Shown here: piece by piece, positions 5,174 to 24,646 of the stretch
Numbering within the stretch: the stretch's first letter is position 1
Layout of the letters: each line of letters starts with the position of its first letter
IMG/VR virus record: IMGVR_UViG_3300006751_000128
Span: 1-24,646 of that record
From: a virus
DNA length: 24,646 bases
Strand: one strand, 5' to 3'
The notes under the pieces: generated by a model
Told to the model about the DNA's origin: nothing
Database searches by the model: none
Seen by the model: only the letters and a program-made list of their open reading frames with translations
Translations under genes and position numbers: made by a program

Positions 5174-7102
5174 ATGCCTTTTACTAAGTTCCAAAACCTT
5201 GATTATGACCAAATAAAGACCCAAATTAAGTCTTATCTCCGTGCAAACTCAACTTTTACGGATTTTGACTTCGAAGGATCTAATTTTTCGGTTTTAATTG
5301 ATACTTTAGCGTATAATACGTATATTACAGCGTTTAACTCTAATATGGTTGTCAATGAATCCTTCTTGGATTCGGCAACATTAAGAGAAAACGTTGTTTC
5401 TTTAGCAAGAAATGTTGGTTATGTACCACGGTCTAGAAGTGCTTCTGTTGCTAATATAACATTTAGTGCAACGACAACTGCTAACACCCCTACACTGACC
5501 TTACAGGCAGGTTTGGTGGCAGTTGGCACTTATGATGACACTACATATACATTTTCCATACCTGAAACGGTTACAGCAACCACTACCCATACATATGACA
5601 ATTCGGGTAATGTTGCTAGTAGTACTGCTGTGTTTGGAACTGCAGCAGATCCTCTAAAGGTATATGAGGGAACGTTCCTATCTACAAAGTTTGATGTTGA
5701 TGCATCATTAGATCAAAAGTTTGTATTAAATAACTCCTTTATTGATACATCTACATTAGTTGTATATGTTGCTGCACCAGGGATAACTGGATTAGGTAGA
5801 GAGTATAAACAGGTAGATAATATACTACAAGTTAAGAAAGACTCTGAAATATACTTAATTCAGGAAGTTCAGGATGAAAAGTATGAGATACTCTTTGGTG
5901 ATGGTTTCTTTGGTAAGAAACTACAGGATACTGCTAGTGTAACCTGTAATTATATTATTACTAATGGCACTGCAGGTAATGGTCCTTCATCATTCGCCTT
6001 CTCAGGATCGTTTGTTACGTCTACTGGAGCAATAGCAACTTTAGATTCAACACCATCAATAAACACTATTACTAGTGCTGCTAATGGCGGTGAGATTGAA
6101 TCATTAAGTTCTATTAAGTATTTTGCACCTAGATTGTATTCTGCACAGAGTAGAGCAGTCACAAATAGGGATTATGAAGCAATTTTACCTACAATTTACC
6201 CAAATACTGAGTCAATTTCTGTTATTGGGGGCGAAGAAGTAGATCCACCACAATTTGGGACAGTTTTTATCTCAATTAAACCAAAAAATGGTGAAGCAGT
6301 CTCTGATTTTGATAAAATTCAGATTTTAACTAAACTTAAGAACTATTCTATTACGGGAGTCAACCAAAAGATTGTTGATTTACAAATATTGTATGTTGAG
6401 TTAGAAAGTTACATTTATTATAATACATCACAAGTTTCTAATGCAGGTAATTTAAAAACGAGAGTAACTGATGGATTAACTACCTATTCTAAGTCTACTG
6501 ATGTTAATAAATTTGGCGGTAGGTTCAAATATAGTAAAGTTTTGAGCGTAATTGATAAAATTGATGAGGCAATTACCTCAAATATTACTAGAGTTAAGAT
6601 TAGAAGGAATTTGGAGGCACTTTTGAACCAATATGCACAATATGAACTGTGTTTTGGTAACGAATTTAATGTAAAAACTGAAGGATATAACATTAAGAGT
6701 ACTAAATTTAAGATTGAAGGTGAAACTAGTGAAGTTTTCCTAACAGATACTCCAAATGCAGATAAAAAAGCAGGTGTTATTTCTATTATTAAGTTAAATC
6801 CTGCAACAAATACAAATACAGTTGTTGCTAAGTCTGCAGGAACAGTAGATTATATTAAAGGTGAGGTTATTTTGACAACAGTTAACATAACTAGCACTCA
6901 AAGAGCAAATAATATTGTTGAAATTCAGGCATATCCTGAGTCAAATGATGTTATTGGGTTAAAAGACCTATATCTTGATTTTAGCATCGGAAATAGTTCA
7001 ATAAATATGGTAAAAGACACTATTTCTTCAGGTGAACAAATATCTGGAGTTGGTTATAAAGTAACTTCAAGTTATAGCAACGGAGAAATAACAAGGAACT
7101 GA
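5174..7102 (+). CDS. 6: gp6-like baseplate wedge protein (642 aa)
   Basis: gp6 forms the iris-like ring that holds the wedges together around the tail hub. The length (642 aa against 660 in T4) is normal. The N-terminal 80 residues are strongly conserved in style (LDYDQIKTQIKSYLRA, FDFEGSNFSVLIDTLAYNTY, LARNVGYVPRSR). The baseplate-J-like core is visible around residues 300-350 (IKYFAPRLYSAQSRAVTNRD), and the C-terminal third is beta-rich. It lies 1 base after gp25 and 1 base before the giant gene, so all three are one late transcript. No Shine-Dalgarno sequence is evident, so coupling to gp25 translation is likely. No damage is visible. Confidence 0.92.
   Translation: MPFTKFQNLDYDQIKTQIKSYLRANSTFTDFDFEGSNFSVLIDTLAYNTYITAFNSNMVVNESFLDSATLRENVVSLARNVGYVPRSRSASVANITFSATTTANTPTLTLQAGLVAVGTYDDTTYTFSIPETVTATTTHTYDNSGNVASSTAVFGTAADPLKVYEGTFLSTKFDVDASLDQKFVLNNSFIDTSTLVVYVAAPGITGLGREYKQVDNILQVKKDSEIYLIQEVQDEKYEILFGDGFFGKKLQDTASVTCNYIITNGTAGNGPSSFAFSGSFVTSTGAIATLDSTPSINTITSAANGGEIESLSSIKYFAPRLYSAQSRAVTNRDYEAILPTIYPNTESISVIGGEEVDPPQFGTVFISIKPKNGEAVSDFDKIQILTKLKNYSITGVNQKIVDLQILYVELESYIYYNTSQVSNAGNLKTRVTDGLTTYSKSTDVNKFGGRFKYSKVLSVIDKIDEAITSNITRVKIRRNLEALLNQYAQYELCFGNEFNVKTEGYNIKSTKFKIEGETSEVFLTDTPNADKKAGVISIIKLNPATNTNTVVAKSAGTVDYIKGEVILTTVNITSTQRANNIVEIQAYPESNDVIGLKDLYLDFSIGNSSINMVKDTISSGEQISGVGYKVTSSYSNGEITRN
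7093..7097 (+). promoter_or_regulatory. Ribosome binding site of the giant gene
   Basis: AAGGA lies 6 bases before ATG 7104, inside the last codons of gp6. It is one of the few clear Shine-Dalgarno sequences in the window and decides this start over later in-frame ATGs. Confidence 0.7.
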
Positions 7103-7103
7103 T

Positions 7104-10100
7104 ATGATAACAACAGGATTAGATACTAGAGTAAATGTGCAACAGCTCATTGAGAGCCAGTTGCCTGAATATTTGCTATCAGAAAGTCCAAACTCTATAG
7201 ATTTCTTTAAGCAGTATTATGCTTCTCAGGAATTCCAGGGTGGAAATATTGATATTGTTGATAATCTTGATCAGTATCTCAAATTAGATAATTTAACACC
7301 AGAACGTCTTAATACTGGAACAACATTATCTGTTGGTATTGGTACTGATGATGATACTATAAACGTTACTAGTACTAAAGGTTTTCCAAAATCTTATGGT
7401 CTTTTTAAGGTAAATGATGAAATTGTAACATATACAGGTATCACAACTAACAGTTTTACTGGTTGTATACGTGGATTTTGTGGTATAACCTCTTATCATG
7501 AAGAAAATAACCCAGGGGAGTTGGTTTTTTCGACATCTGTTGCTGGTACAGCGTCTACAAGCACTACAGTTGTTAATTTAAGCACATTATTCCTTAAAGA
7601 ATTCTATAAAAAGCAAAAATTTGCTCTTACTCCAGGTTTAGAAGATACTCCTTTTGCAGAAGGTGTTAATGCTGGTACCTTTATAAAGGAATCAAAATCT
7701 CTTTATAGGTCAAAAGGAACTGAAGAGTCATTCAGAATTTTATTTAATGTCTTATATGGTCTTGATCCAAAGATAATTGATTTAGAACAACTTGTATTAA
7801 AACCATCAGCAGCAGAGTTTATTAGAAGAGAAATCCTAGTTACTGAAAGAGTTTCTGGTGATCCAAACAAATTAATCGGACAAACCATTACTTTATCTAC
7901 CGATGAGGATACATATGGTGCAGTTTCTGAAGTTCAACCAATAACAACTAAAGGTGGTAGTGTATACTATAAAGTAAGTCTATTTGTTGGTTTTAATGAG
8001 AGAGATCTAATACAAGGTACATTCAAAATTGCTGGTGCTAGTAGAGTTATTGGTAATACTGGTATAGGTGCTAGTGTTATAACTGTAGATTCTACTGTTG
8101 GATTTACGACTACTGGAACAGTTATTAGTGGAATAAACACTGTTACCTATACTGATAAGTCCGTTAATCAATTCTTAAATTGTAGTGGTATAACATCTTC
8201 TATTACTACTGCTGATAGTATTAGATCAGATGAAGTTGCTTATGGATATGAAAATGGAGATATTACTAAGAAAGTTGAATTAAGAATTACTGGTGTTCTA
8301 AACAAATTTGTTCCTACTAATGACATAATTTTAAGAGCTGAAAATGAAGTTATTGGAATAAGGAATGTAGGTGAAGAGATTTTAAATAGTGGAAAGACTA
8401 ATAAGGAAGTTTTTGCAAATTCTTGGATCTATAATACTTCATCAAGGTTCCAAATTGACGATACTTATAGTGCTTCTACTAAAACTACCCCAGTATTATC
8501 ATCTAAGGTTGATAGATCCAACTTAAGAGATGGTGATACTGTAGAAATCTTGGTTAGAGGAGAAAAAATTTCGAAGGCAACTGCTAAAGTAGATACCGTC
8601 TTATCTAATCAGCAAGACATTATTTTAATAAATTTAGAGCCTACAACATTTTCTCCTGTTCCTAATGAATATTATGATTTAAGAAGAGTTTTAAGAACAG
8701 CATCTAGTGTTGGTAATATTGTAGGTATTGGAACTTGGAATGTAGATAATGCAAAAGTAGATGTTGAATATGGTAATAATCTCCTTGTTTCTGATGTTCA
8801 GAATGTATATGTAGAAGAGAATTTAGATGAAAACAATTTTTACGTAGCATCCAACTCGTTACCATCCTATCAAATGGATGTTGGTATAGCAAAAACAAGC
8901 ATTTCATATAGTCATGTACCAGCACTTAATAATGCAATACAAGATTTAAATGTTTATACTCAACAGTATACAACCATAAACTTTGATGATAATGTTCCCT
9001 TTATTACTGGCGATCAGGTAATTTATACTACAACTGCAGCAACTTCAATACCTGGATTAATTGAAGGTGCTAGTTATTATGTTAAGGTATTGATAGATAC
9101 TTTAGGTAATACTAATAAGATTAATTTATATGCGTCAAGATCCTTTATTTTAGCACCAGATACTGTTCCATCTAAACCAACTAAGGTTGAATTTGGACTA
9201 ATTCCTCCAGATCCTGGGTATCATTCATTTACTTTAAAAAGGTATAGTAAAGAAAAAATAGGTTCTCAAAAGTTATTTAAAAAATTCCCAATAAATCCAA
9301 ATATTGGAAGTGGAGAAGCTGTTAAAACATTACCAGGTGGTGTTGGTATTTTAGCGAATGGTATAGAAATTGATAGTTATAAGTCATATGATAAGATATA
9401 TTATGGTCCAGTAGATGGTGTTACTGTATTCAAAGGTGGTAAAAATTATGATGTTATTAACCCTCCTTCAGTTAGAATTTCTCAACCACCAGCATATTTG
9501 TTAGTCCAAGCAGGTGTTGTTACTACTGGAGCAGGAGTTTCTGCAACAGTTAGACCAGTAATTAGTGGAAAAATTGATAAAATTCAGGTAGATCAACAGA
9601 ATTTTGATATTGATAGTGTTCAATCCATTTCAATTAAGGGTGGTAATGGGTCTGGAGCACTTTTACAACCAATTCTTAACCAAAGATTTAGGGAATTATC
9701 TTTTGATGCAAGAGTTAAGTCTAATGCATTAGTTGGTGGTGTTGATATTGTTCAAGAAAATATAATTTTTGATTCTACTCATAATTTGGAGGATGGTCTA
9801 AAATTAGTTTATGATAAAAATGGTAATAATCCACTCGGTATTAATGAATATAAGGGAAGTAATGCACAAAATATTGGTATAAACAGTACTTTACAGGATG
9901 GATCGACTTATTGGACTAAAGTTGTTGGTATAAGTTCAGTTAAATTATATCCATCTGAAACAGATTATAAATCTGGAATTAATACTGTTGGATTTACCAC
10001 ATATAATGCTTCTGGTACTCATAAATTTAGATTATATGAAGGTAGAAATCATTTACGTTCTGTTAAGGTTATAGATTCTGGATCTGGATATACTAATAGG

Positions 10101-13100
10101 AAATTAGATGTATATCCTGTAGGAGTTTCCACTGTTAGGGATAGTATTATATTTAATGATCATGGATTTAAAACTGGAGAATTTATTACTTATGCAACTA
10201 CTGGATCAGTAATATCTGGATTATCTGTAGCAAATCAATATAGAATTACTACATTAAATGAGAATGAATTTAGATTAACTAATGTTGGAGTTGGAGGAAC
10301 TAATACTTCAGATTATGATAGAGATAGGTATGTTAAGTTTGAAGGTAAGGGGACTGGAGTTCATAGTTTTGCATATCCTCCTATTGAACTTGTTGTTGAT
10401 GTAAAATATGCAAAAGTTGCAGTAGCATTAACAGAATCTCTTGTATTAACACCTGTAGTTAAAGGTAGTATAGAACAAGTATATGTTTATGATGGTGGAA
10501 CTGGATATGGATCTACTGTATTGAATTTTGAAAAGAATCCTAATGTCATAATAACAGTTGGTGAATTGGGTGAATTAAAACCAATTATATCAAATGGAAA
10601 GATATATTCTGTAGATATACAGAACCAAGGTTCAGGATATAATGCACCTCCAGATATTAGAGTTGATGGTGATGGTTATGGTGCTGATTTAAGGGCAATA
10701 GTAGAAAATGGTGTAATTGTAGATGTTAAGGTTCTTAATGCTGGAACGGGATATACTGATCTAAAAACATCATTATTCTTGACTTCTCCAGGTATTGAAG
10801 GATCATTAATTTCTAAAGTTAGAGGATTAACCTTAAATGATTATAGATTTGCTCAAACATTAGATAAGAAGTATAAATCTGCATTATTAACAGAATCTAA
10901 GAATGATCTTAAGTATTCTTTTGTTGGATATTCAACTGCAGTTGGAGATACTTATTTTAATGACCCTAATCCTACTACTGGACACTCGGCAATTATAGGA
11001 TGGGCATATGATGGCAATCCAATTTATGGTCCATATGGATATTTGGATCCAATGGATGATAACTCTTCAATAGGTATTTTAAAACCTGGTTATACTAAAA
11101 ATGAATGGTCTAGAGATGAGTCTACTGGTGTAATAGTTGGTGTTGTTAGTGATAGGCCAGTTGGATTTAGTAGTGGATTCTTTGTTGAAGATTATACTTA
11201 TGATGGAATAGGAGATCTTGATGAGAAGAATGGAAGATATTGTAAGACACCTGATTATCCTAATGGAACCTATGCGTATTTTGCTGGTGTATCTACAAAC
11301 CCAATAAGTGGTAATTTGGAACCACAATTCCCATATTTTGTTGGCGATTCATATAGATCTACCCCACAAACAGAGAATTTGATTGCAGGAGATCAATATA
11401 CGTTTGATTTTGTTGGAAAATCAATAGCTAGAAACACATTCCCATATAAAGTTTCTGATCCTTTTGCTGACAATGATTTCTTGGTTGAATCTAATGAATT
11501 AGTTGATCAAATTTCTGTTATTGACTCTATAACTAAGGGTTCAGTAAATTCTCTAGAAATTCTTGAAGGTGGTTCTGGATATAAAGTTGGTGAAAGTGCA
11601 ACTTTTGATAATACAGGAACTAATGGTGGTGGTTTAAGTGCTTCAATTAAAAGAATTACAGGAAAAGATATTTTCCATCTGAATACTATTTCTGAAAAAT
11701 ATGAAGGTGTTGTGTTTAAGTGGAATAGTGCTAAGGAAGTTGCTGGATATATTTCAACATCACATTCCTTATTTGAGAATGATAATATTACAATTTCGGG
11801 TCTTTCAACTTCAATAAATGCCCTTACATTACAAAATCATCAAATTGGTATATCATCAGATACTACCACACTATTAAAAGAACTTAGTACACAGGTTGTT
11901 GGTATAGTTACTGATATTTACGTAGCAAATATTCCAAAACAAGTTTCTGTCGGTAGCACTATTGCTATAGGTGATGAAGAATTATCTGTATTAAGTCTAT
12001 TTGAAACGAGAAATATATTACGTGTTAAGAGAGGATTGGGTAGTGCAGGTAGTGTAGGTATTCATACAATGTCTACAGAAGTTAGAACAGTTCCCAGTTT
12101 CTTTACAATACCTGTTGAAACCCCTTATTTTGCCTCTAGAATCAATGATAAGGTATATTTTAATGCCTCACAGTCAATTGGTGTTGGAACCGTTGTAGGA
12201 ATTGCTACAACTGTTGCTAATAGTATAGGGGAATCTACTGATTACATATCGATTCCAACTCAGAGTATTCATATTCCAAATCATCCGTTTTCGGATAATC
12301 AGAGGGTTACTTTTAGTGTTCCAACTGGTGCAAATCCAATTTCAATATCAACTACTAATAATGCTGGTGTAGCAGGTTGGGCTTTTGGTCCTAGTGGTGG
12401 TAGTGTAGATGCTTATATTATTAATAGGTCAAAAGATTATATTGGGATAACTACTCAACTTGGAATATGCACTAGTGGAGTATTTTTCCATAATAGTGGG
12501 TCTAACAATTCAGAATATTCATTTGAATCTAATTACGATCAAGTAACTGGTAAAGTTGAAAGAATTATTACAACAGTTGCGATATCTACATCATTAACAA
12601 CTTCTCATGGAATGTTGAATAATGATATTATTGGTCTTACTCTAAAATCAGATAGTACAGTTGGTGTTGGAACTGCTACTGCTGTTACGGTAAAATATTA
12701 TGATACTGATAAAAAGTTATTAATTAATCCAATTGTATTTGCTGCTTCTGGAGTTAGTTCAGCAACAAATACAATATCTAAGACTTTACATAATCTTACT
12801 ACTGGGCAGAAAGTATTTTATAACGGTGGTAATAATCAAATAGTTGGATTATCTACAAGATCATATTATGTTTATAAGGTAGATGATGATATTATTAAGT
12901 TGGGTGAAACTCGTTATGATGTAGTTAATGACCCACCAAGATTTTTAAACTTTACATCTACAGGTGGATCAGGGCAAGAGTTATCTCTAATTAATCCTCC
13001 ATTAGATATTGTAAGAGATAATAATATAAAATTTGATTTATCTGATAGTTCACTTCAAGGATATGAATTTAAGTTATTTTTTGATCATAAATTTAATAAT

Positions 13101-16100
13101 GAATATGTTTCCACAGGACAGACTTCTACTTCAGTAACTGTTGGATTTGGAACTGTAGGTGTAACAACAAATGCATCATTTACATTAAATCATTCAGAGA
13201 GTAACCCACAGAAATTATACTACTCTTTATCAAAAGCTGGTTATATAAGCACTTCTGATACTGATGTTGTAAATTCTTCTGAAATTAATTATGTTGATAG
13301 TAAGTATAATGGTGATTATTACATTAGTGGTGTAGGTGCAACCACCTTTAATATATCCTTAAGACAGTATCCAGAAAGTTTATATTATTCATCATCAAAT
13401 AGCATATTAAAGTATAACACATCTTCCCCTACTGCAACTGGTGGTATTGGTAGTATGACTATTGCTTTTGGTGGTATTGGATATAAAAACCTACCAAAAT
13501 TTACTGGAATATCATCAAGCAATGGTCAAGATGCTAACATTGTTCCAGAATCCAAAGAAGCTAATAGAATTAATGAAGTTAGAATAATTGATCCTGGGTT
13601 TGAATATTCTTCAGACCGTACTCTTAGACCAGAAGCTCTTATATCCCCAATAATAAATCTTAAGAATTCTTCTACTATTCAGTCTATAGAAGTTTTAACT
13701 GGTGGAACTGATTATCTTGCTAAACCAAATTTACTTGTTGTAGATCCTGAAACAAATCTTCCAGTTGATAATGGATTTATTGAGGCAGTTATGGATGCTA
13801 ATGCCATAACTAAGGTTGATATTATTGATCCCCCACAAGGATTAACTTCATTAGAACAGAGAATTGTATCTACTAATAATAGTAATGGAATTCAGATTAA
13901 TACTTTAGCATATAATTCTTCCAATAAGAGAGTAACTTTAACGGTACAAACACCAACATTAGGATTTACGGCACCTCCATTTGTTGAAGGTGATAATATT
14001 TTCGTAGAAGGTCTTCAACAATTTATTGCTCCAGGTGCAACTGCTGGTGATGGATTTAATTCAACAGATCATGGATATAAGTTCTTTAAGGTAAATTCAA
14101 ATACTGATGGATCATCATTAACAAGTAATCCAGTAAAAGTTGCTTTCCAAATAAATGAATTTACTTCTAATCCTGGTATTGCTAAGACAACTCAAAGTGG
14201 ATATGCTTCATTAGTTAAAGAAGCACATTATCCGACATTTAAAACCATACAAGATCTATCTCTTTTCCAAATTGGTGAAAAAATTGCAGTATTTGATAAT
14301 GGTGTATGGGTTTCAACAGATTTAATTATAACTGATTCTCAACCAACTTCAATTAAGGTTGGTGGAAAGTATAGAATGTTGGTAGATGATAGAATTAAAG
14401 GAGAAACAACAGGAACAATTGCCACAATTAATACTTTATTTGAAAATAAAGGATATTTTGATATTAAGTATTCTTTAAGGAAAGATGAGGGATGGAAAGA
14501 TGAAATTGGTAAATTGAGTGTAGATCATCAGTCTTTATCAAATAATGATTATTATCAGAATTTATCATATAGTATTAAGAGTCCTCTTGAATATGAAGAC
14601 ATCATAAGTCCAGTAAATAGACTTCTTCACCCTGCTGGAATGAAGAACTTTGCCGATGTTGGTATTAAGTCTTCAACAAAAGCAGGAATATCAACAGAAA
14701 CTGAAAATGCTACTATTATTAGTCAGGATTTAATATCTGAGAATAGAGTAGATACTATTAACATATATGATCTTGCGAAGGATGTTGATACTCAAAATAA
14801 TAGATCTAGATTTATATCAGTCCAAAATAAAAAATTATCAAGTTATATTTTATGTGAAACTAATAGAGTATTGGAAATAGATGATATTAGCAATGAATTT
14901 TCAAATTCATTGAATATAAACAGAGTATCTGATACTGTTGAGATTGATCCCGATTATTCAGAATTTTTAATTCAGGTTAAGAGTCCAATTAATACAGATT
15001 CTCAATTAACAGAGTTAACTATTTTCAGAGAAAATGATGATATATTTACTTTAGAACGTGGTAATATCCATAATACTACAAATGAATTAATAGCAATATC
15101 AGGTAAAGTTGAAACGGATGGTACTTCTAGATTACAATTTGTTCCTACAGATCCTACTGCTGATTATGATATTAAGATTTATACTAGTAAGTTTAATACT
15201 AATGTAGCAGGTCTTAATACAGCACCTATTGGATTTATTGATTTAGTTGGTGTAACTACTAATGTTGGTATTGGAACATCTACTCAACTGCTTTCTGTTG
15301 ATAAAGATAAATTAGATGCTTATCAGGCAAAAGTTGAAATTACAGATAATGTAAATGCTGATAAGACTATTGTTGATTTATATTTAACTCATGATGACAC
15401 AAATGTATATAAAGCAGAAGCATATACAGATAGCCAAACTCAGCAAGGGTTCTCATCTAATTTCATAGGAACATTCCATTCAAATATTACTAATGGAATT
15501 TTAACTTTAAATTATGAAAATACTAGCACAAATTCAGTATCTCTTAGGTCTAAAATTGTGGGATTTGGTACAACTGCAGTTGGAGTTGGAACACATAGGT
15601 TTAAAGATTCGGGACAAGCAGCTGGAACAGAAAGATCCGCAAAACTAGAATCTTCATTTGTTAATGTTGGTGTTTCAACTGGCGGCACTGCTTTTGATAA
15701 TACTACACCAGGTGCATATGTTGGTGATTCACCTACTGGTATTAGTTCAACTAATATAACATCTATTAAGAGCACTGTAAGGGTTTCTGTTGGTCAAACT
15801 AGTGCAATTCATCAGTTATTGACAATATGGGATGGTACAGATTCTTATATAACACATTACCCATTCGTTTCAATTGGAACTACTACTGGTATTGGAACAT
15901 TTAAGGCAAATATTACCAATGCAATACGTTTGCAATTTATTCCTGATGCTCAATGGAATGGCCAGAAACTTGATATTCAAAGATATGATGAAATACTTTA
16001 TAGTGATAGTGATACTGCAAATACTGCACCAGATTTAACAATTGGTGGAGTTACAGATTCTCTATCATTGATGGAATATAATGGAACAGGAAATAGATTG

Positions 16101-19100
16101 GATAAGACTGCTTTTGATTTAAAATATAAAGGTGTTCCAATTTTTGAGAAAGTATTTAATCCTGCTAGCGCAAGTATTGTCAATACAACAACTGGATTAT
16201 TTACAATTAAAGACCATTTCTTTAATACTGGAGAAAGGTTAATTTATACTCCAAATTCATCTTATACTGGAGTTGCAGGAACAGCAATGGAAACTGCACC
16301 TGGCACTGTTCTACCAACTGAAGTTTATGCAATAAGTGAGACTCAAGATACATTTAAACTTGCTACAACAAAAGCAAATGCTTTAGCAGGAACTAATGTA
16401 GTATTTACTTCTACAGGTGGTGGTAATATACATGAATTGGAAATGTATAAGAAGATGGAGAAGAGTATTGTCCAAGTAAGTGGATTATGCCAGTCTCCAA
16501 TAGCATTCAGTCCTCTAACTACTACATTAAAGAATAATGTAGGTAATGTTTCTGCAGCATCAACTATTATTGGTTTAGTTGGATTATCTTCAATTGTTCC
16601 GAATGATATCTTTAAAATTGATGATGAATTTGTTAAAGTTGAGCAAGTTGGTGTCGGCACAACTAGTGTAGGACCAATAACTGGAATTGGAACCTTTAAT
16701 TTGATTACTGTTGAGCGTGGACTTGTAGGATCTACTGCTGCAACACATAATAATGCAGCAACTGCTAGACAATATAAGGGATCATTTAATATAATTGGAT
16801 CTAAAATTCACTTTACAGATCCTCCAACAGGAGCAGGTACAAATTTAACAAATCAGTCAAATCTCAGTTTTGCAAAAGCAACGTTTGATGGAAGAGTATA
16901 TTTAAGGCAAGATTATAGAAATAATAGAATATTTGATGATGTTTCTCATGAATTCAATGGAATTGGTCAGACATTTAGAGCAAGTGTTGGTGGAGCAAAT
17001 ACTACTGGTATTGTCACTGGAAGTACCTTAGTTCTTATTAATGGAATATTCCAGATTCCTTCCACTACAATTAATACAGATAATAATTATAGTTTCATAC
17101 AAACTGGATCTGGTGTAACAGGTATAACCAGTGTCTCATTTACTGGTATTACTTCAGAAAATGGGGATCAAATAAAGAGTTATGTAGATCCAAATTTAAA
17201 TCAAGTTCCAAGAGGAGGTATGATAGTATCTCTTGGTTCTACTGGTGGATTGGGTATTGCACCTCTTGAGGCAGCAGTTATACGTCCCGTAGCAACTAAT
17301 AAGACTATTACTGGGTTTGTAGGTGTTTCTACTTGGGGATCTACCCTTGCAATTAGCACAGCATCATATAATAATGTCTCAGGTGAACTTAGGGTTACTA
17401 CAAATGAGGAACATTATTTTAGATATCCAAATGAGTTTGTAAATTTAGCTGGGTTGGCATTTACTTGTGGTGGATCTTATGATGTTACAGGAGCAACTTA
17501 TTATCAAGATACTGGTGAGTTAAAACTAATAATTGGATCTCATAATTTCAAACTTGGTGATAAGATTAAGATAAAGAATAATTCTCTTCAATTTACATGT
17601 AATACTGGTAGTGGCAATCATACTTATCCTCGTGCGGGAACTGACCCTGTTGCAGGTATAGCAACACCTATTACAGGAATTAGTGGAACATCAATTACGC
17701 TTAATGTTGGTATTGGAACTACAGCAATCCACACTTATAATGGTGGAACTGCTACTGATGCCGTAACCTTTGGAAGTCAATATGTTGGTGTAACAACTAC
17801 TATTTTCCCTAATGCTATCAATGATAAACCATTCTCTATAGTTGGTGTTCATTCTCCTACTGAATTTACTGCTCAGGTTGGTGTAAGTACTATTCGCCAC
17901 ATATATGTTGGTTCTGGTATTGCATCAGCATATTATGATCAATTAAATTGGGGATCTGGATACTCTGGAATACCAGGAATAGCGAGTGTATCTGTATATG
18001 ATGAAGAATATGCTCATAATTTTGTAAGTGCATCTAATAATGCTCTTACAGTTAACGCAGGAGGTATTGGTGCCAATTCCAATGTTACCCCTACAACTGC
18101 TTCATATGCTTCTGCAAGTGGAGATTTGGTAATATACAAGTCTGGTATTGGTAAAACTACTGGTTCATTAACATTTGATCGTCATACAACAGCATCTGGA
18201 ACACTTTATAGTGGAAGTGTTGGAATATTGACTGTTAGATTGGGTGCCAATCCAAGTCCTGCACTTGCAAATGGTCAGATAGTTTGTATTGATGATCTTG
18301 GTTTAACATTTACTTGTGCAGAAGATAATCATGCTACTGAGCACAAATATCCAAGATATAGTGATCCAGCAAGTAAGAGATGGTTCCCAATTAAGAATGT
18401 AGCTAGTAATATTCAATTTGAAATTAATATTTTAGATGCAATTCCTTCATCTAATGTAAGTCATCATATATGGAAACCTAGTGCTACAGGTTCAATCAAG
18501 AGGTCTGCTAACACAGTAGCAATTACAAATAATTCATTGTCATTCACTTGTTCTAGGGATAGTCATAGAACACAACATTCTTATCCTAGATCAACAGACC
18601 CTGTTTCTGGTTTAAACACTTCAATTATTTCTGCTCAAGAAGATTCTATTACAGTTAACGTAAGACCTGGTGGTGGTGCAGGAACAGGAGCAGTTATTGT
18701 AGGTGTAACAACAGATAATACTCACAGATATACGGGTGGAACAGCAACTAATGCTATATTCCAGAATACTTGGGGCAACAATCCTAAGAGTGTTACTGGT
18801 GCCGTATATACTCCATCTACTGGTCAATTAGTCTTAACTAGTGCTAGTCATGGATATTCTGCTAATAATACACTTGGAATTGGCACTGGTAAGGTAATAT
18901 TTGCTTGTGCTAGAGATAATTTCACTACAAATCATGGATATCCTCGTGCTGGATATGCACATTCATTCAGTTCTTCAGGAAGCACATTAACTAATGCTAT
19001 TGTTTCTGGTGGTGCATGGAATGGAACAGGACACACACCTACAGATGCTTCATATAATCCAACTACAGGTCTCCTAGTTCTAACAAAGGCAAGTCATGGG

Positions 19101-21296
19101 TTAACAACTAGTGATACTGTTGGAATTAGGACAGGATCTTTAGCATTTAAGTGTTCTAAAGATAATTATGCTACAGATCACACATATCCAAGAGTAACTG
19201 ATCCTATTGATGGTTTAGCTAATGTAGCAATTGTAGAAAAAACAACTAATACAATTACTATTCAAGTTGGAAGGTCATTAACAGGTGCTGACCCAATGGC
19301 AGGTATTTCTACAATACCAATTGATTCAGTAACTACTAATACGATTACTCTTAATGTTGGTGCTGCTCCAAAAGGAACTGGTGGATCATTATTATTCAAT
19401 GTTACTGCTCCTGGTAGTGGATATGTTAACCCTGCAATTGCAGTTTCCCCTCCAACATATGAAAATTTAGAAGTTGAAGGTGTTTCTAGAATATCTATAG
19501 GTGCTACAACCATTTTAGGTAATGCTTCATTAGTAACAGTTAATGTTGGTTCAGTATCTACTGTTGGAATAGGATCAACTTTACTTGGTGTAGAATCCTT
19601 TAAGATTGCAAGATCTGGATTTGGTTATGAGGTTGGAGATGTATTCAGTCCTGTTGGGTTAGTAACTGATTATAGAATACCTTCTTTAATCAGTAATCTT
19701 GAACTTACAGTTGAAGAAATATTTACAGATAGATTCTCATCTTGGGACTTTGGTGAATTTGATTACATAGATTCCATATATGCATTGCAAAATGGTGTTA
19801 GAACTAGATTCCCATTATATTATGATGGATCTCTGTTAAGTTTTGAGAAAGATCCAGGAAATATAAATTCTGCATTGATTGATTTAAATTCTTTATTATT
19901 AATCTTCTGTAATGGTGTATTACAGAATCCAGGAGAATCTTATAGTTTCTTAGGTGGTACATCTATAGAATTTAAAGTTCCTCCAGATGAAAATGATGAT
20001 ATTGCAATATTCTTCTATAGAGGCACAACAGGAACTGATAGTAGATTAGTAACTATTAGACAGAGTTTGAAAAAAGGTGATATCTTACAGATAAGAAAAG
20101 ATAATTCATTAACTACTGAACCTACTCAAAATTCAAGAACTGCAGTAAATATCTTTACTTCTGATATTCTTGAGACAGACATATATTCTCAGCAGGGAAT
20201 TGATGATCAGGTTTATAAACCTATGAGTTGGACAAGACAGAAAGTTGATAAAGTTATTAATGGTGAGATAGTTTACAAGAACAGAGATCTCTATGAACCT
20301 CTCGTTTATCCTACTGCAAGGATAATTGGTGATGTTTCTACTACAGACACTACAATATTTGTAGATAACGCAGATTTCTTTAAGGAAGATATTGCAGGAA
20401 GTATTCCTTCTGGTGTTAATGGATTACTTGTTCCATCATCAGTTTTAGTTCCTGCAGAACTTACTGCAACTGTTTCTGCAGCAGGAACTGTAAACCCATT
20501 AACAATTGTTAGTGGTGGTAGTGGTTATGTTGGAGCAACGACTTCTGTTGTTATTGGTATTCCTACTACTGGAATAGGAGTTGGTATTGGAACTACTGCT
20601 ACAGCAACAGCAACAATAACTAATGGTTCTATTAGTGCAGTTACAATTGTAAATCCAGGATGGGGATATACAAATAGAACTGGTCTTGCACCACAAGTTA
20701 TCGCACCAACACCAGTATTGACTGATGAAAAAGTGTCAAATATAGGTGCAATTCAAGGATTATCTGGAATAATAACTGGAATCACTACAATGAATCCAAG
20801 TTCTACTAAATTGGCACTTGAATTTAATTTACGTATAGCATCTGGCACATTTAGTAATCTGAGTGTAGGTGATCCAATTTACATTTATGATACTGCTATT
20901 GGATCTGGATCTACTTCTCTTTGGAATAATAGTAATAATAATGTTGTTGGTATAGGAACTACCTTTATAGACAATGTTTATCGCATAAGAACGCTTGTAA
21001 CATCTGGTGTTGGTGCTACTATTACCTGTTTCGTTCATACTGGTCTTACTACAACAACTCTTGGTAATAAGGGTGATAGGGCACCAGGTATTATTACAGG
21101 TAGGGATTATAATCTCGGTGGAGTTGCTAAATTCTCTTGGGGTAAGTTATCTTCCTTGTCTAGAGGGGCATCACCTATTGCTATAGGAGTTACTGGATCT
21201 ACTGTTGGATTAGCCACTCAGATCGGTATAACAACCTTCCCAACTATCCAAAGAAGAGGGCACGGATTGTTTGATAGCGGTGCTCTTGATATCTAA
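7104..21296 (+). CDS. 7: Giant gp7-like baseplate wedge initiator / virion structural protein (4,730 aa)
   Basis: Position between gp6 and gp8 and the N-terminus (residues 1-250, including FFKQYYASQEFQGG and YRSKGTEESFRILFNVLYG) indicate the cyanophage gp7 counterpart, though T4 gp7 has only 1,032 aa. Domains in order are: helical N-terminus; RG-type modules (100-132, 1620-1654, 3170-3215); a YHYH-like domain (GWAYDGNPIYGPYGY at 1299 to YAYF at 1390-1393); at least ten GxGY turns; many VGIGT/VGVST turns; five CxxD...H.YPR repeats (Cys 3499, 3738, 3816, 3935, 4017); and a conserved beta domain (about 4209-4440). The tail ends FSWGKLSSLS...TFPTIQRRG. The protein is almost all beta and low in cysteine. 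AAGGA at 7093-7097 supports the start. The frame is intact over 14 kb, so misassembly by frameshift is unlikely. It is expected in the outer wedge, perhaps bearing receptor-facing or carbohydrate-binding modules. Confidence 0.85.
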   Translation: MITTGLDTRVNVQQLIESQLPEYLLSESPNSIDFFKQYYASQEFQGGNIDIVDNLDQYLKLDNLTPERLNTGTTLSVGIGTDDDTINVTSTKGFPKSYGLFKVNDEIVTYTGITTNSFTGCIRGFCGITSYHEENNPGELVFSTSVAGTASTSTTVVNLSTLFLKEFYKKQKFALTPGLEDTPFAEGVNAGTFIKESKSLYRSKGTEESFRILFNVLYGLDPKIIDLEQLVLKPSAAEFIRREILVTERVSGDPNKLIGQTITLSTDEDTYGAVSEVQPITTKGGSVYYKVSLFVGFNERDLIQGTFKIAGASRVIGNTGIGASVITVDSTVGFTTTGTVISGINTVTYTDKSVNQFLNCSGITSSITTADSIRSDEVAYGYENGDITKKVELRITGVLNKFVPTNDIILRAENEVIGIRNVGEEILNSGKTNKEVFANSWIYNTSSRFQIDDTYSASTKTTPVLSSKVDRSNLRDGDTVEILVRGEKISKATAKVDTVLSNQQDIILINLEPTTFSPVPNEYYDLRRVLRTASSVGNIVGIGTWNVDNAKVDVEYGNNLLVSDVQNVYVEENLDENNFYVASNSLPSYQMDVGIAKTSISYSHVPALNNAIQDLNVYTQQYTTINFDDNVPFITGDQVIYTTTAATSIPGLIEGASYYVKVLIDTLGNTNKINLYASRSFILAPDTVPSKPTKVEFGLIPPDPGYHSFTLKRYSKEKIGSQKLFKKFPINPNIGSGEAVKTLPGGVGILANGIEIDSYKSYDKIYYGPVDGVTVFKGGKNYDVINPPSVRISQPPAYLLVQAGVVTTGAGVSATVRPVISGKIDKIQVDQQNFDIDSVQSISIKGGNGSGALLQPILNQRFRELSFDARVKSNALVGGVDIVQENIIFDSTHNLEDGLKLVYDKNGNNPLGINEYKGSNAQNIGINSTLQDGSTYWTKVVGISSVKLYPSETDYKSGINTVGFTTYNASGTHKFRLYEGRNHLRSVKVIDSGSGYTNRKLDVYPVGVSTVRDSIIFNDHGFKTGEFITYATTGSVISGLSVANQYRITTLNENEFRLTNVGVGGTNTSDYDRDRYVKFEGKGTGVHSFAYPPIELVVDVKYAKVAVALTESLVLTPVVKGSIEQVYVYDGGTGYGSTVLNFEKNPNVIITVGELGELKPIISNGKIYSVDIQNQGSGYNAPPDIRVDGDGYGADLRAIVENGVIVDVKVLNAGTGYTDLKTSLFLTSPGIEGSLISKVRGLTLNDYRFAQTLDKKYKSALLTESKNDLKYSFVGYSTAVGDTYFNDPNPTTGHSAIIGWAYDGNPIYGPYGYLDPMDDNSSIGILKPGYTKNEWSRDESTGVIVGVVSDRPVGFSSGFFVEDYTYDGIGDLDEKNGRYCKTPDYPNGTYAYFAGVSTNPISGNLEPQFPYFVGDSYRSTPQTENLIAGDQYTFDFVGKSIARNTFPYKVSDPFADNDFLVESNELVDQISVIDSITKGSVNSLEILEGGSGYKVGESATFDNTGTNGGGLSASIKRITGKDIFHLNTISEKYEGVVFKWNSAKEVAGYISTSHSLFENDNITISGLSTSINALTLQNHQIGISSDTTTLLKELSTQVVGIVTDIYVANIPKQVSVGSTIAIGDEELSVLSLFETRNILRVKRGLGSAGSVGIHTMSTEVRTVPSFFTIPVETPYFASRINDKVYFNASQSIGVGTVVGIATTVANSIGESTDYISIPTQSIHIPNHPFSDNQRVTFSVPTGANPISISTTNNAGVAGWAFGPSGGSVDAYIINRSKDYIGITTQLGICTSGVFFHNSGSNNSEYSFESNYDQVTGKVERIITTVAISTSLTTSHGMLNNDIIGLTLKSDSTVGVGTATAVTVKYYDTDKKLLINPIVFAASGVSSATNTISKTLHNLTTGQKVFYNGGNNQIVGLSTRSYYVYKVDDDIIKLGETRYDVVNDPPRFLNFTSTGGSGQELSLINPPLDIVRDNNIKFDLSDSSLQGYEFKLFFDHKFNNEYVSTGQTSTSVTVGFGTVGVTTNASFTLNHSESNPQKLYYSLSKAGYISTSDTDVVNSSEINYVDSKYNGDYYISGVGATTFNISLRQYPESLYYSSSNSILKYNTSSPTATGGIGSMTIAFGGIGYKNLPKFTGISSSNGQDANIVPESKEANRINEVRIIDPGFEYSSDRTLRPEALISPIINLKNSSTIQSIEVLTGGTDYLAKPNLLVVDPETNLPVDNGFIEAVMDANAITKVDIIDPPQGLTSLEQRIVSTNNSNGIQINTLAYNSSNKRVTLTVQTPTLGFTAPPFVEGDNIFVEGLQQFIAPGATAGDGFNSTDHGYKFFKVNSNTDGSSLTSNPVKVAFQINEFTSNPGIAKTTQSGYASLVKEAHYPTFKTIQDLSLFQIGEKIAVFDNGVWVSTDLIITDSQPTSIKVGGKYRMLVDDRIKGETTGTIATINTLFENKGYFDIKYSLRKDEGWKDEIGKLSVDHQSLSNNDYYQNLSYSIKSPLEYEDIISPVNRLLHPAGMKNFADVGIKSSTKAGISTETENATIISQDLISENRVDTINIYDLAKDVDTQNNRSRFISVQNKKLSSYILCETNRVLEIDDISNEFSNSLNINRVSDTVEIDPDYSEFLIQVKSPINTDSQLTELTIFRENDDIFTLERGNIHNTTNELIAISGKVETDGTSRLQFVPTDPTADYDIKIYTSKFNTNVAGLNTAPIGFIDLVGVTTNVGIGTSTQLLSVDKDKLDAYQAKVEITDNVNADKTIVDLYLTHDDTNVYKAEAYTDSQTQQGFSSNFIGTFHSNITNGILTLNYENTSTNSVSLRSKIVGFGTTAVGVGTHRFKDSGQAAGTERSAKLESSFVNVGVSTGGTAFDNTTPGAYVGDSPTGISSTNITSIKSTVRVSVGQTSAIHQLLTIWDGTDSYITHYPFVSIGTTTGIGTFKANITNAIRLQFIPDAQWNGQKLDIQRYDEILYSDSDTANTAPDLTIGGVTDSLSLMEYNGTGNRLDKTAFDLKYKGVPIFEKVFNPASASIVNTTTGLFTIKDHFFNTGERLIYTPNSSYTGVAGTAMETAPGTVLPTEVYAISETQDTFKLATTKANALAGTNVVFTSTGGGNIHELEMYKKMEKSIVQVSGLCQSPIAFSPLTTTLKNNVGNVSAASTIIGLVGLSSIVPNDIFKIDDEFVKVEQVGVGTTSVGPITGIGTFNLITVERGLVGSTAATHNNAATARQYKGSFNIIGSKIHFTDPPTGAGTNLTNQSNLSFAKATFDGRVYLRQDYRNNRIFDDVSHEFNGIGQTFRASVGGANTTGIVTGSTLVLINGIFQIPSTTINTDNNYSFIQTGSGVTGITSVSFTGITSENGDQIKSYVDPNLNQVPRGGMIVSLGSTGGLGIAPLEAAVIRPVATNKTITGFVGVSTWGSTLAISTASYNNVSGELRVTTNEEHYFRYPNEFVNLAGLAFTCGGSYDVTGATYYQDTGELKLIIGSHNFKLGDKIKIKNNSLQFTCNTGSGNHTYPRAGTDPVAGIATPITGISGTSITLNVGIGTTAIHTYNGGTATDAVTFGSQYVGVTTTIFPNAINDKPFSIVGVHSPTEFTAQVGVSTIRHIYVGSGIASAYYDQLNWGSGYSGIPGIASVSVYDEEYAHNFVSASNNALTVNAGGIGANSNVTPTTASYASASGDLVIYKSGIGKTTGSLTFDRHTTASGTLYSGSVGILTVRLGANPSPALANGQIVCIDDLGLTFTCAEDNHATEHKYPRYSDPASKRWFPIKNVASNIQFEINILDAIPSSNVSHHIWKPSATGSIKRSANTVAITNNSLSFTCSRDSHRTQHSYPRSTDPVSGLNTSIISAQEDSITVNVRPGGGAGTGAVIVGVTTDNTHRYTGGTATNAIFQNTWGNNPKSVTGAVYTPSTGQLVLTSASHGYSANNTLGIGTGKVIFACARDNFTTNHGYPRAGYAHSFSSSGSTLTNAIVSGGAWNGTGHTPTDASYNPTTGLLVLTKASHGLTTSDTVGIRTGSLAFKCSKDNYATDHTYPRVTDPIDGLANVAIVEKTTNTITIQVGRSLTGADPMAGISTIPIDSVTTNTITLNVGAAPKGTGGSLLFNVTAPGSGYVNPAIAVSPPTYENLEVEGVSRISIGATTILGNASLVTVNVGSVSTVGIGSTLLGVESFKIARSGFGYEVGDVFSPVGLVTDYRIPSLISNLELTVEEIFTDRFSSWDFGEFDYIDSIYALQNGVRTRFPLYYDGSLLSFEKDPGNINSALIDLNSLLLIFCNGVLQNPGESYSFLGGTSIEFKVPPDENDDIAIFFYRGTTGTDSRLVTIRQSLKKGDILQIRKDNSLTTEPTQNSRTAVNIFTSDILETDIYSQQGIDDQVYKPMSWTRQKVDKVINGEIVYKNRDLYEPLVYPTARIIGDVSTTDTTIFVDNADFFKEDIAGSIPSGVNGLLVPSSVLVPAELTATVSAAGTVNPLTIVSGGSGYVGATTSVVIGIPTTGIGVGIGTTATATATITNGSISAVTIVNPGWGYTNRTGLAPQVIAPTPVLTDEKVSNIGAIQGLSGIITGITTMNPSSTKLALEFNLRIASGTFSNLSVGDPIYIYDTAIGSGSTSLWNNSNNNVVGIGTTFIDNVYRIRTLVTSGVGATITCFVHTGLTTTTLGNKGDRAPGIITGRDYNLGGVAKFSWGKLSSLSRGASPIAIGVTGSTVGLATQIGITTFPTIQRRGHGLFDSGALDI
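17598..19190 (+). repeat. Five protein-coding CxxD...H.YPR repeats in the giant gene
   Basis: The translated motif F.C..D...T.H.YPR recurs with Cys codons at 17598, 18315, 18549, 18906 and 19152. The first copy lacks the Asp. Several copies are preceded by a strand pair such as TGELKLIIGSHNF or TGLLVLTKASHGL and followed by DP..G. Spacings in residues are 239, 78, 119 and 82, so the basic unit is about 80 residues with insertions. DNA identity between copies is low, which points to old duplication. Confidence 0.8.
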
Positions 21297-21336: not shown

Positions 21337-22938
21337 ATGGCTGCAATTGTAACCGATCAATTTAGAATTCTAAATGCAAATAACTTTGTGGAGACCGTAG
21401 AGGACACCGCAAATTCTTATTATGTATTTTTAGGATTGAGTGATCCAGGTGCTGGTACGTATGGTCGAAGTGCCGACTTAGCAACTTGGAATGCTTCTGC
21501 TACTATGCCAGTTCCAGAAGATAGTTTTAATATACTTAATCATACTGGTGATACGATGATATTTGGTAGGAAGGTTACTTCCGACAATATCAGACGATTG
21601 ATTAAGAAAAGAACTTGGGCGAAAGGAACACGATATAACATGTATCGGCATGATTATAGTTCAACTAATAAAGCAAGTGGATCACAGGCAACTAGGTTAT
21701 ATGATGCAGATTATTATGTAATTAATAAAGATTATAATGTTTATATTTGTATAGACAATGGTGCTTCTGGAATTTCCACAACAGGTCAAGCATCTCAGGA
21801 TGAACCAACATTTACTGGATTAGAACCATCTAGAGCAGGTGAAAGTGGTGATGGATATACTTGGAAGTATTTGTTTACTGTTTCTCCTAGTGATATTGTA
21901 AAATTTGATTCTACTGATTACATTGCTGTTCCTAATAATTGGACAACAAGTGATTCAACACAAATTAAGGCTGTAAGGGAAAATGGTGATGCTTCGGTAA
22001 ACAATAACCAAATTAAAAAGGTTTATATTGATAATCAAGGAAATGGATACTCGGATGGATTAACTCAAGAAGTTAACATCTTAGGTGATGGTTCTGGTGG
22101 TAGAGTCGTCCTTGATGTAATTAGTAGTAAGATTACTAATGCTGTTGTATCTTCTGGTGGTCAAGGATATAGTTATGGGATAGTTGATTTAGGTAGATTG
22201 AATACTAATGTTAATGTAGGTGCTGGTGGTACTTATGCTAAGTTAATTCCAGTCATACCTCCAGGAAAAGGTCATGGTTCTGATTTATATAAAGAATTGG
22301 GATGCGATAAAGTTTTAATTTATGCAAGATTTGATGATTCGACAAAAGATTTCCCAATGGATGCAAAATTTGCACAAATTGGAATAGTTAAGAATCCAAC
22401 TTCAACTGGATCAACTTCAGTATTCACTCAAGGACAATTCTCATCCTTAGGTGCAATTAAATTTGTTGATACCACTACAGATATACCTGTAGTTGGTGAA
22501 AAAGTTAGTCAGACTCTGCCTAATGGTGAAAAAGCACATGGAATAGTTGCATCTTGGGATAAAGACACCAAGGTTATGAAATACTATCAAGATAGATCAT
22601 TATACTTTAATCAATCTACAGATGATCAGACTGATCATGTTGGAATATCAACTCAAGCCAGAGTTCAAGCATTTAATAATGATACTACTGGTGGTGCTAC
22701 TCCAGCAAACTGCGAGACTTCTAGTGGATTTGGTGCTGCAATTCAAACTGGATTTAGTGGAATCACCACAAATCCAACTGGAAACAAGTTGATTAGTTTG
22801 GGTATGGACTTTACAAGCGGTCTTGCTAGTCCTGAGATAAATAAAGGGTCGGGCGAAATAATTTACCTCGACAATAGATCATTAATCTCAAGAAATGAGA
22901 GACAAAAAGAAGACGTTAAAATCATCCTGGAATTCTAA
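21337..22938 (+). CDS. 8: gp8-like baseplate wedge protein (533 aa)
   Basis: The N-terminus (MAAIVTDQFRILNANNFVET) and internal stretches (RGTRYNMYRHDY-like region at about 97-108, ESGDGYTWKYLFTVSPSDIV, VLIYARFDDSTKDFP) are those of cyanomyovirus gp8, which bridges gp7 and gp10 in the wedge. It is longer than T4 gp8 (334 aa). Part of the excess is an inserted beta segment with two GxGY turns (about 232-241 and 272-281), the same module seen in the giant protein. It begins after its own late promoter at 21311. A GGAAA stretch lies about 12 bases upstream of the ATG, too far for an ideal Shine-Dalgarno sequence. The next structural gene follows after 6 bases. Confidence 0.88.
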   Translation: MAAIVTDQFRILNANNFVETVEDTANSYYVFLGLSDPGAGTYGRSADLATWNASATMPVPEDSFNILNHTGDTMIFGRKVTSDNIRRLIKKRTWAKGTRYNMYRHDYSSTNKASGSQATRLYDADYYVINKDYNVYICIDNGASGISTTGQASQDEPTFTGLEPSRAGESGDGYTWKYLFTVSPSDIVKFDSTDYIAVPNNWTTSDSTQIKAVRENGDASVNNNQIKKVYIDNQGNGYSDGLTQEVNILGDGSGGRVVLDVISSKITNAVVSSGGQGYSYGIVDLGRLNTNVNVGAGGTYAKLIPVIPPGKGHGSDLYKELGCDKVLIYARFDDSTKDFPMDAKFAQIGIVKNPTSTGSTSVFTQGQFSSLGAIKFVDTTTDIPVVGEKVSQTLPNGEKAHGIVASWDKDTKVMKYYQDRSLYFNQSTDDQTDHVGISTQARVQAFNNDTTGGATPANCETSSGFGAAIQTGFSGITTNPTGNKLISLGMDFTSGLASPEINKGSGEIIYLDNRSLISRNERQKEDVKIILEF

Positions 22939-22944
22939 AAAACA

Positions 22945-24646
22945 ATGCCACAGAAAACTAATTTAAATATCGGTCCTTATTATGATGATTTTAGTAAGGA
23001 CAAAAACTTTTACAAAGTCTTATTCCGACCAGGATATCCTGTGCAGGCTAGAGAGCTAACAACTCTACAGTCATCATTACATAATCAGATAGAGTCTTTC
23101 GGAAGTCATATGTTCAAAGAGGGATCTATGGTGATCCCTGGAAATGTTAGTTATAATCGTGAGTATTATTCTCTTAGATTATTGGATGATCATTTAGGTA
23201 TTCCAGTTTCATTATACATTTCAAATTTAAAGGGTAAAAGATTAAAAGGACAAAATTCTGGAGTAATAGTAAGTGTAGATGATTATAAATTAACTTCTGA
23301 TAGGGATGATATCACCGATACAACATTGTTCATCAGTTATGTGGCTTCTGGTGAAGATAATACTGGTGGTTCATTAGAAGATGGTGAGCAATTAATAACT
23401 GAAGAATCTTTTGTTTATGGAAATACTGCAATTAATGCGGGAGATACTGTTGCAACACTTGTTGCTTTAGATGCTACAGCAACTGGTTGTTCTGCTGGTA
23501 TAGGAAATGGAGTTTATTTTATTCGTGGAACTTTTGTTGATGTTCAAGAAGATAAGATAGTTTTAGATCCATATTCAAATACACCATCTTATAGAATTGG
23601 ATTGAATATTAATGAGGATCTTGTCGGTGCAAAGGATGATAATAGTTTATATGATAATGCTAGGGGATTTTCTAACTATGCAGCACCTGGTGCTGATAGA
23701 TTAAAGATATCAACTACTTTAACTAAAAAGGCATTAACGGATAATAATGATAAGAGTTTTGTTGAAATTCTTAGAATAGATAATGGAGAAATTAAGAAAA
23801 TACAGAATGAATCTCAATATAATCTAATTAAAGATTACTTTGCAAAAAGAACTTACGAAGAATCTGGGAATTATTCGGTTGGTAATTTTAAAGTTGATGT
23901 TGCAGATTCATTAAATGATGGGGTAGATGAAGGTGTCTTTACTTTAGAGCAACAAACAGATCAGGATAATACTCCTAACAGGGATTTATTAGCTGTTAAG
24001 GTTTCACCTGGAAAAGCATATGTTAAAGGATTTGATATTGATAAATCTGTAACAACTGTTTTAGATATAGAAAAACCAAGAGATAAAAAGACAATTAATA
24101 AGACTTTAATTCCTTTTGAATTAGGTACTAGAATAAAAGTAAATAATGTTCGTGGAGTTCCTCAGGTCGCTATTAATGCAAGTACTACAGTTAGTCTTCG
24201 TAGCCAACGTGCAAATGTTGGAGTTACAACAACTGCTGCATCTGGGACAGCAATAGGGGAAGCAAGAGTATATGCTTTTAATTTAGCAGATTCTCCATAT
24301 GTTAATACAGCATCTACATGGGATTTGTATTTGTATGATATTCAGACTTATACTTTCTTAGATTTGAATGTTAATCTTGGAACTGGTCAATTGCCAGTTG
24401 GTTCTTATATAAAAGGTTTACAAAGTGGTGCTTCTGGATATGCTGTTAGTGCTGGTGGTGATTATTTTACTCAAACTTCTGGATCTTTCTTATTAGGTGA
24501 ACAAATTTCAATTAATGGTTCTACTGCTATTTCAGCAGCAATTAAAGAAATTAAAGTATATGGTATTCGGGATGTAAAATCAGTATATCAAAATAGTTCA
24601 ACTATAGCTGGTTATTCTGCTGATTTTATTGCAGATACAAAATTAG
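22945..24646 (+). CDS. DUF4815-type virion structural protein, 3' end cut by window (567 aa visible)
   Basis: The frame begins MPQKTNLNIGPYYDDFSKDK and continues YKVLFRPGYPVQARELTTLQ, SSLHNQIESFGSHMFKEGSM and VIPGNVSYN. This opening is characteristic of DUF4815-containing virion proteins in T4-like marine phages. The family probably forms a baseplate or short tail-fibre component, but the exact role is unknown to me. The rest is beta-rich, with VAVSPGKAYVKGFDI-like segments (VKVSPGKAYVKGFD at about 353-366). A long domain with many Thr, Ser and Gly residues continues to the window edge, with no stop in 567 codons. It lies 6 bases after gp8 and probably shares its transcript. The start is the first ATG after gp8, and no strong Shine-Dalgarno sequence is seen. 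Confidence 0.82.
   Translation, partial: MPQKTNLNIGPYYDDFSKDKNFYKVLFRPGYPVQARELTTLQSSLHNQIESFGSHMFKEGSMVIPGNVSYNREYYSLRLLDDHLGIPVSLYISNLKGKRLKGQNSGVIVSVDDYKLTSDRDDITDTTLFISYVASGEDNTGGSLEDGEQLITEESFVYGNTAINAGDTVATLVALDATATGCSAGIGNGVYFIRGTFVDVQEDKIVLDPYSNTPSYRIGLNINEDLVGAKDDNSLYDNARGFSNYAAPGADRLKISTTLTKKALTDNNDKSFVEILRIDNGEIKKIQNESQYNLIKDYFAKRTYEESGNYSVGNFKVDVADSLNDGVDEGVFTLEQQTDQDNTPNRDLLAVKVSPGKAYVKGFDIDKSVTTVLDIEKPRDKKTINKTLIPFELGTRIKVNNVRGVPQVAINASTTVSLRSQRANVGVTTTAASGTAIGEARVYAFNLADSPYVNTASTWDLYLYDIQTYTFLDLNVNLGTGQLPVGSYIKGLQSGASGYAVSAGGDYFTQTSGSFLLGEQISINGSTAISAAIKEIKVYGIRDVKSVYQNSSTIAGYSADFIADTKL

Follow-up and report, generated by a model that had tools for sequence, protein, structure and literature searches.

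A predicted E1_FCCH-type module with an inserted Cys/HxYPR hairpin recurs in gp7-position baseplate proteins of marine cyanophages

The window, meaning the whole stretch of DNA analysed here, is a 24,646-base IMG/VR virus record representing a contig of a T4-like marine cyanophage, and the baseplate genes and modules described below lie on its plus strand. It encodes the gp25 baseplate wedge (positions 4771–5172; Pfam GPW_gp25, 4e-11; phrog_261), the gp6 baseplate wedge (5174–7102; phrog_219, 4.7e-187), a giant protein of 4,730 aa (7104–21296), and the gp8 baseplate wedge (21337–22938; phrog_438, 3.3e-153). The giant protein has phrog_2885, a baseplate wedge subunit, as its top PHROG (E=0), and the order gp25–gp6–giant protein–gp8 places it at the gp7 position. 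The identical order occurs in Prochlorococcus phage P-SSM2, whose giant protein is annotated as gp7, baseplate wedge. As regards similarity to T4 gp7, a search of PDB sequences with the whole 4,730-aa protein gave no match at E<=1. A protein with a DUF6267 domain (E 9e-65; 1536–2489) is encoded upstream and one with a DUF4815 domain (E 4e-34; 22945–24645) downstream of gp8, both from families of unassigned function, and the GC content is 42% in the first 4 kb of the window versus 31–37% elsewhere.

As had been read from the sequence earlier, the giant protein contains five copies of an F-x-C...H-x-YPR repeat; they lie at about 65–85% of its length, with Cys codons at positions 17598, 18315, 18549, 18906 and 19152. 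Copy boundaries were set by iterated profile matches in the open frame that begins at position 7092. Copy 1 spans 17484–17711 by profile (E 4.4e-21) and carries the loop variant CNTGSGNHTYPR. Copy 2 (CAEDNHATEHKYPR; 18189–18431; E 1.8e-19) adjoins copy 3 (CSRDSHRTQHSYPR; 18501–18662; E 6.4e-17), whose N-terminal hairpin or half is diverged, while the C-terminal half of copy 4 (CARDNFTTNHGYPR; 18792–18953; E 2.1e-13) has diverged beyond recognition. Copy 5 (CSKDNYATDHTYPR; 19035–19271; E 7.6e-27), with its invariant Cys codon at 19152–19154, is complete and was used as the AlphaFold2 input. Its profile end lies about 70 bases beyond position 19200, where the earlier note had closed the repeat region. 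That note had also described a CxxD element, which is present in four of the five copies and replaced in copy 1 by CNTGSGNHTYPR, and a preceding SHG/SHN, which holds for three copies and fails for the remaining two. Cysteine is otherwise scarce, as the note had stated, with 16 residues among 4,730. The motif C..D...T.H.YPR is observed four times against an expectation of about 6e-8 from the protein's composition, and never in 200 shuffles, so it is real and far above chance. The same protein has a YHYH domain at aa 1288–1399 (window 10965–11300; Pfam PF14240, E 5e-23), far from the repeats; this is its single Pfam YHYH match, with none in the repeat region. According to the prediction of a 2021 survey (PMC7824862), YHYH acts in phage tails as a zinc-dependent hydrolase.

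Copy 1 is surrounded by a sixth, related copy of the FxC...TTxFP type, with its own FxC and a Cys codon at 17466. The first part of this module (17352–17471; a weak profile match) is split by copy 1 after FTCGG. An insert in its post-Cys loop, of about 100 residues, holds copy 1 (17475–17774; defined by alignment to L007 and P-SSM2 gp7), after which the sequence resumes with SQYVGVTTTIFPNAINDKPF in a second part (SQYVGVTTTIFP...VGVSTIRHIYVG; 17775–17912; aligned to L007). In L007, a close relative, the surrounding module is uninterrupted and reads LHFTCGGYSGAGTTVIFPDAVNDKPF, whereas the gp7 of P-SSM2 has a module inserted at the identical site. These alignments indicate that copy 1 is a module nested within the loop of another module, a domain-in-domain arrangement. 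In the surrounding module the Cys and a TTxFP strand are retained, but the Asp and the His are both absent. Sister modules were observed at window positions 17352–17912 and in two other viral loci (L058, 2571–9218; L142, 6728–14203), and include both FxC...TTxFP and Cys-less forms such as GIGFSTPAGNITLP. They point to a probable wider superfamily of the module fold along related giant proteins, some of its members lacking the Cys.

The earlier note had proposed searching phage and bacterial proteins with a profile of the five copies. Searches with single sequences and a consensus as queries found the repeat to be widespread in marine cyanophages; the consensus matched at 961 places, spread over 335 phage records that all belong to Synechococcus or Prochlorococcus phages or to marine viruses without a name. 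From viral contigs, two scans yielded 155 loci, and an hmmsearch of these, of the window and of a small number of phage records gave 1,456 distinct aligned rows, of which 1,396 cover the Cys column. No plasmid gave a module match, and the sole match among bacterial genomes was a Hyphomonas FCCH protein without the Cys hairpin.

The number of copies per protein or locus fragment ranges from 1 to about 30, with uncultured fragments reaching 24 to 31. Counting partial profile matches as well, the gp7-position protein has one match in syn9, S-RIM2, S-RIM8, S-RIM12, S-MbCM100 and WH25-B, two in S-SSM5, six in P-HM1, seven in ACG-2014g, 11 in both P-SSM2 and Syn30 (part), 13 in both P-SSM4 and P-SSM7, and 20 in P-RSM6. 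The P-RSM6 structural gene (CPXG_00128; L087, 1–24191) is about 8,570 codons long, with about 20 modules. In S-WAM2 the modules occur in another gene, annotated as a short tail fiber. By profile, the gp7-position protein of S-PM2 (S-PM2d081, 3,048 aa) has no modules. As the copy number in annotated gp7-position proteins runs from 1 to 20, with none in that of S-PM2, the modules are best regarded as accessory, and they appear to be dispensable in at least one phage (S-PM2). VrlC has been said to substitute for gp7 (PMC7029224), but the VrlC-type proteins examined contained no modules, which makes that remark irrelevant to the repeat. Similarly, an evolution study of S-PM2d reported mutated structural ORFs (PMC9910659); since S-PM2d086, S-PM2d089, S-PM2d090 and S-PM2d081 all lack modules, it is uninformative about them. 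As for location in the virion, the S-SSM5 homologue falls in cluster T4-GC 969, and mass spectrometry of purified S-SM1 virions detected T4-GC969 (PMC3037559).

The repeated mini-domain that the earlier note had anticipated, some 80 residues long and built of paired strands, is borne out. Copy 5, modelled by AlphaFold2 from 116 sequences (pTM 0.74; pLDDT 85, and about 90 or higher over most of residues 1–80), is predicted to form six strands, with C40 following strand 36–39 and a single helical turn leading to strand 48–51, which carries H49 and Y51. DSSP strands 36–39 and 48–51 form a hairpin, whose strongest internal covariations (37–50, 39–48 and 37–48) agree with these strands and independently give the same register. 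In this register, L36, F38, C40, T47, H49 and Y51 share one face and the variable positions 37, 39, 48 and 50 lie opposite, the inner positions being hydrophobic or H/K/I/L/T. Judging from the strand register, we infer that the Cys is on the inner, core-facing side next to the His, and that it most likely serves as a structural residue buried in the hairpin core. A tandem pair from L092 was modelled with a pLDDT of 89 and a pTM of 0.58, each domain having the same strands; this pTM, with each domain well predicted, suggests independent beads with no confidently fixed orientation.

Fold searches with these models returned 26 matches at E <= 0.001 from a viral library, the named ones being marine-cyanophage proteins, and models of other cyanophage modules matched at E values down to 6e-8. 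A weaker match in the same library was to a cyanophage endosialidase (E 0.077). The recurring PDB neighbours were weak, namely the phi92 and NF endosialidases and Uba1 at E 0.4 or more, and every PDB fold match stayed above E 0.1 and so fell short of significance. The beta-barrel of the phi92 and NF enzymes was the recurring best PDB neighbour (probability 0.91–0.96 over 78–85 columns, 3.1–3.5 A), but with 14–20% identity, E values of 0.4 and above, and no Pfam endosialidase-barrel match. Matches of the tandem model to alphavirus spikes spanned about 26 A rmsd and were discarded as meaningless.

The earlier note had named no family for the repeat, and searches of Pfam, NCBIfam and PDB sequences returned no credible match to the module. 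A whole-chain PDB match to an iota-carbonic anhydrase (E 2.7e-4) had no single passing stretch and was set aside as compositional. A match of one copy to the Pfam PHD zinc finger (E 0.15) was set aside too. PHROGs 701, 18802, 1276 and 5342 are matched by all five window copies, but these families, like phrog 2885, represent whole large proteins from which the module is neither separated out nor given a function.

A relationship to one characterised domain did emerge from profile comparison. E1_FCCH (PF16190) is the FCCH domain of the ubiquitin-activating enzyme and is common in phage and alphaproteobacterial proteins. The five copies and their consensus gave no match to it up to E=10, against a threshold of 29.5 bits. 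Among bacterial sequences the consensus module recruited just one, the Hyphomonas Tad-like protein, with two Pfam E1_FCCH domains (6e-17); this Tad/TadE-like protein (L091, 6882–8918) also has a VWA match. A comparison profile was built from 77 distinct phage E1_FCCH-like domains, two of whose carriers are Pfam-confirmed, and hhalign aligned it to the module with a score of 32 (P 2.5e-6; best of 60 column shuffles, 17.6). Without the 26 hairpin columns, the score rose to 41 (P 1.3e-9; best of 60 column shuffles, 13.9), and reversed profiles scored 11–12. When an FCCH profile was run on all open frames of module-bearing loci, 117 of its 123 matches fell in modules, aligning across the hairpin, although modules make up 13% of the residues there; two of the six others were the Hyphomonas domains. 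These scores against controls, and this concentration in modules, lead us to conclude that the module probably belongs to the E1_FCCH superfamily and carries a hairpin as an insertion, although by threshold it falls outside Pfam E1_FCCH. The two align through H-G-x-x-x-G-D-x-V-x-I and through the final x-I-x-N-V-T-x-x-T-F-x-V strand pairs, with 41% consensus identity over 37 columns once the hairpin is removed; they differ in the Cys/HxYPR hairpin of about 25 residues inserted between the halves of the module. The predicted strands are compatible with an SH3-like barrel; Uba1 is among the PDB matches, but at E > 1.

The reading that we favour with some confidence is that the modules are E1_FCCH-type beads with an inserted hairpin, acting as accessory structural or adhesive elements at the baseplate periphery, with a buried Cys. 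Each copy would be a small, beta-structured member of the E1_FCCH superfamily (an SH3-like barrel), and the strands LxFxC and HxYPR would form its inserted hairpin, with the Cys on the inner face beside the Phe, the His/Lys position and the Tyr, and most likely buried. Several independently folded copies would sit as accessory beads on the giant gp7-position protein and most likely extend the periphery of the baseplate. By analogy with other tail repeats, they may make the surface that faces the cyanobacterial cell modular and weakly adhesive, and adhesion to the host surface is a plausible role. BACON and Ig-like repeats are likewise tandem accessory beta-domains of virion surface proteins, and have been linked to the binding of hosts or carbohydrates (PMC6949934). 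BACON is a different domain, however, and its arrays in crAssphage grew by single-domain duplications, in contrast to the old and diverged modules described here.

A more specific role, as a glycan-binding domain with a pocket formed by Y-P-R and the following D and directed at cyanobacterial cell-surface sugars, is conceivable but unlikely. It would suit the variable repeat number among phages, the phage endosialidase domains that are the nearest solved (though not significant) fold neighbours, the endosialidase beta-barrel proteins in the viral fold list, and the conservation of Y, P, R and D56 at about 95% or more. These residues could also be structural, given that syn9, WH25-B and S-MbCM100 have a degraded YPR-D; a pocket so strongly kept across phages of different hosts is not expected from host-specific binding.

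Across 1,067 near-complete copies of the module (effective number 390), the weighted frequencies are C40 100%, P52 99.8%, R53 96%, Y51 96%, G12 95%, D56 95%, F38 92%, H21 91%, Y7 90%, D43 88% and H49 74% (Lys in 20%). The Cys was found in all 1,396 aligned copies that cover its column, with no replacement by Val, Ala or Ser. Around it, the Cys-to-Tyr stretch is variable, with lengths of 9 to 17 residues where the case is clear; loop variants of 13 or 14 residues (CDFNGDGNTTQKT, CAFGGASGSAAQKD) nearly all have Lys at the His position, while 9-residue variants (CTQGGGNHT) have no Asp. In total, the Asp is missing from about 12% of copies, including the loop variants CTQGGGNHSYPR and CAFGGASGSAAQKDYPR, which retain the Cys. 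The His position is Ile, Leu or Thr in S-RIM2, S-RIM12, WH25-B, syn9 and S-SSM5, and phages with a single copy often have these residues there, together with a partly degraded YPR, while keeping the Cys and usually the Asp. In the L045 and L076 arrays, a DxNGDGN between the Cys and a Lys-x-YPR resembles a calcium-binding loop, again with Lys rather than His in nearly all copies.

The invariance of the Cys, and the H/K alternation at the adjoining inner position, might be taken to suggest covalent links, either disulfides between modules or subunits or, where the His is Lys, a Cys-Lys type bridge. We consider this quite improbable. Phages with one module keep the Cys, which argues that pairing between modules is unlikely and that a module–module pair within one chain is not general; most copies have His rather than Lys, so a Cys-Lys bridge would not be general either, and an inner-face Cys disfavours contact between chains.

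The earlier note had raised a metal-binding, reactive or cross-linking site built from the Cys, Asp and His. A metal (e.g., zinc or iron), bound in each module, might stabilise the domain or engage host uptake receptors, as the iron "Ferrojan Horse" proposal for phage tails has it. Besides the invariant Cys, this draws on the presence of the Asp and His in most weighted copies, the covariation of D43 with T47 and H49, and the placement of Cys and His on the same hairpin face. By register these residues are not scattered, so the geometry that the earlier note had named as a refutation is not what the model shows. Natural variants speak against the site itself: Lys replaces His in about a fifth of weighted copies, Ile, Leu or Thr replaces it in five phages, the Asp is lost from CTQGGGNHSYPR and CAFGGASGSAAQKDYPR with the Cys retained, and the sister FxC...TTxFP variant has neither residue. 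Metal binding is hence very improbable, and since the His and Asp vary while the Cys is constant, a Cys-Asp-His site conserved as a unit is excluded as a general function, leaving room for a role specific to the Cys. A structural or adhesive bead is more likely than a metal or cross-linking site.

The weakest proposal, recent tandem duplication without selected function, would account for repeats of variable number inside one protein, but it is as good as dismissed by sibling modules whose best identity is about 49% (median; none above 80%) versus 93% (median) for the best counterpart in another contig, a figure inflated by many near-identical strain contigs, and by the 961 of 975 modules whose closest counterpart is found in another contig rather than among their siblings. 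From these identities, the copies appear to be old and individually maintained, with no recent expansion.

A purely structural Cys normally tolerates Val, Ala or Ser in some copies, and by this measure the complete conservation seen here appears stronger than burial alone usually demands. There is a slim chance that the Cys is never replaced because the chemistry of its thiol is under selection, be it as a bridge, through a bound cofactor or in a redox-sensitive contact, with many such sites in each virion; if true, marine cyanophage baseplates would have a recurring switch or lock that works through thiols and is not known from any other tailed phage. More broadly, the analysis provides a placement and defined limits for a repeat within giant proteins annotated as "virion structural protein" or "hypothetical", one that is present in more than 300 records of marine cyanophages, which infect the most abundant phototrophs of the ocean. 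It also sets up a puzzle that can be tested, that of a single Cys kept in every copy while its supposed partner residues are not.
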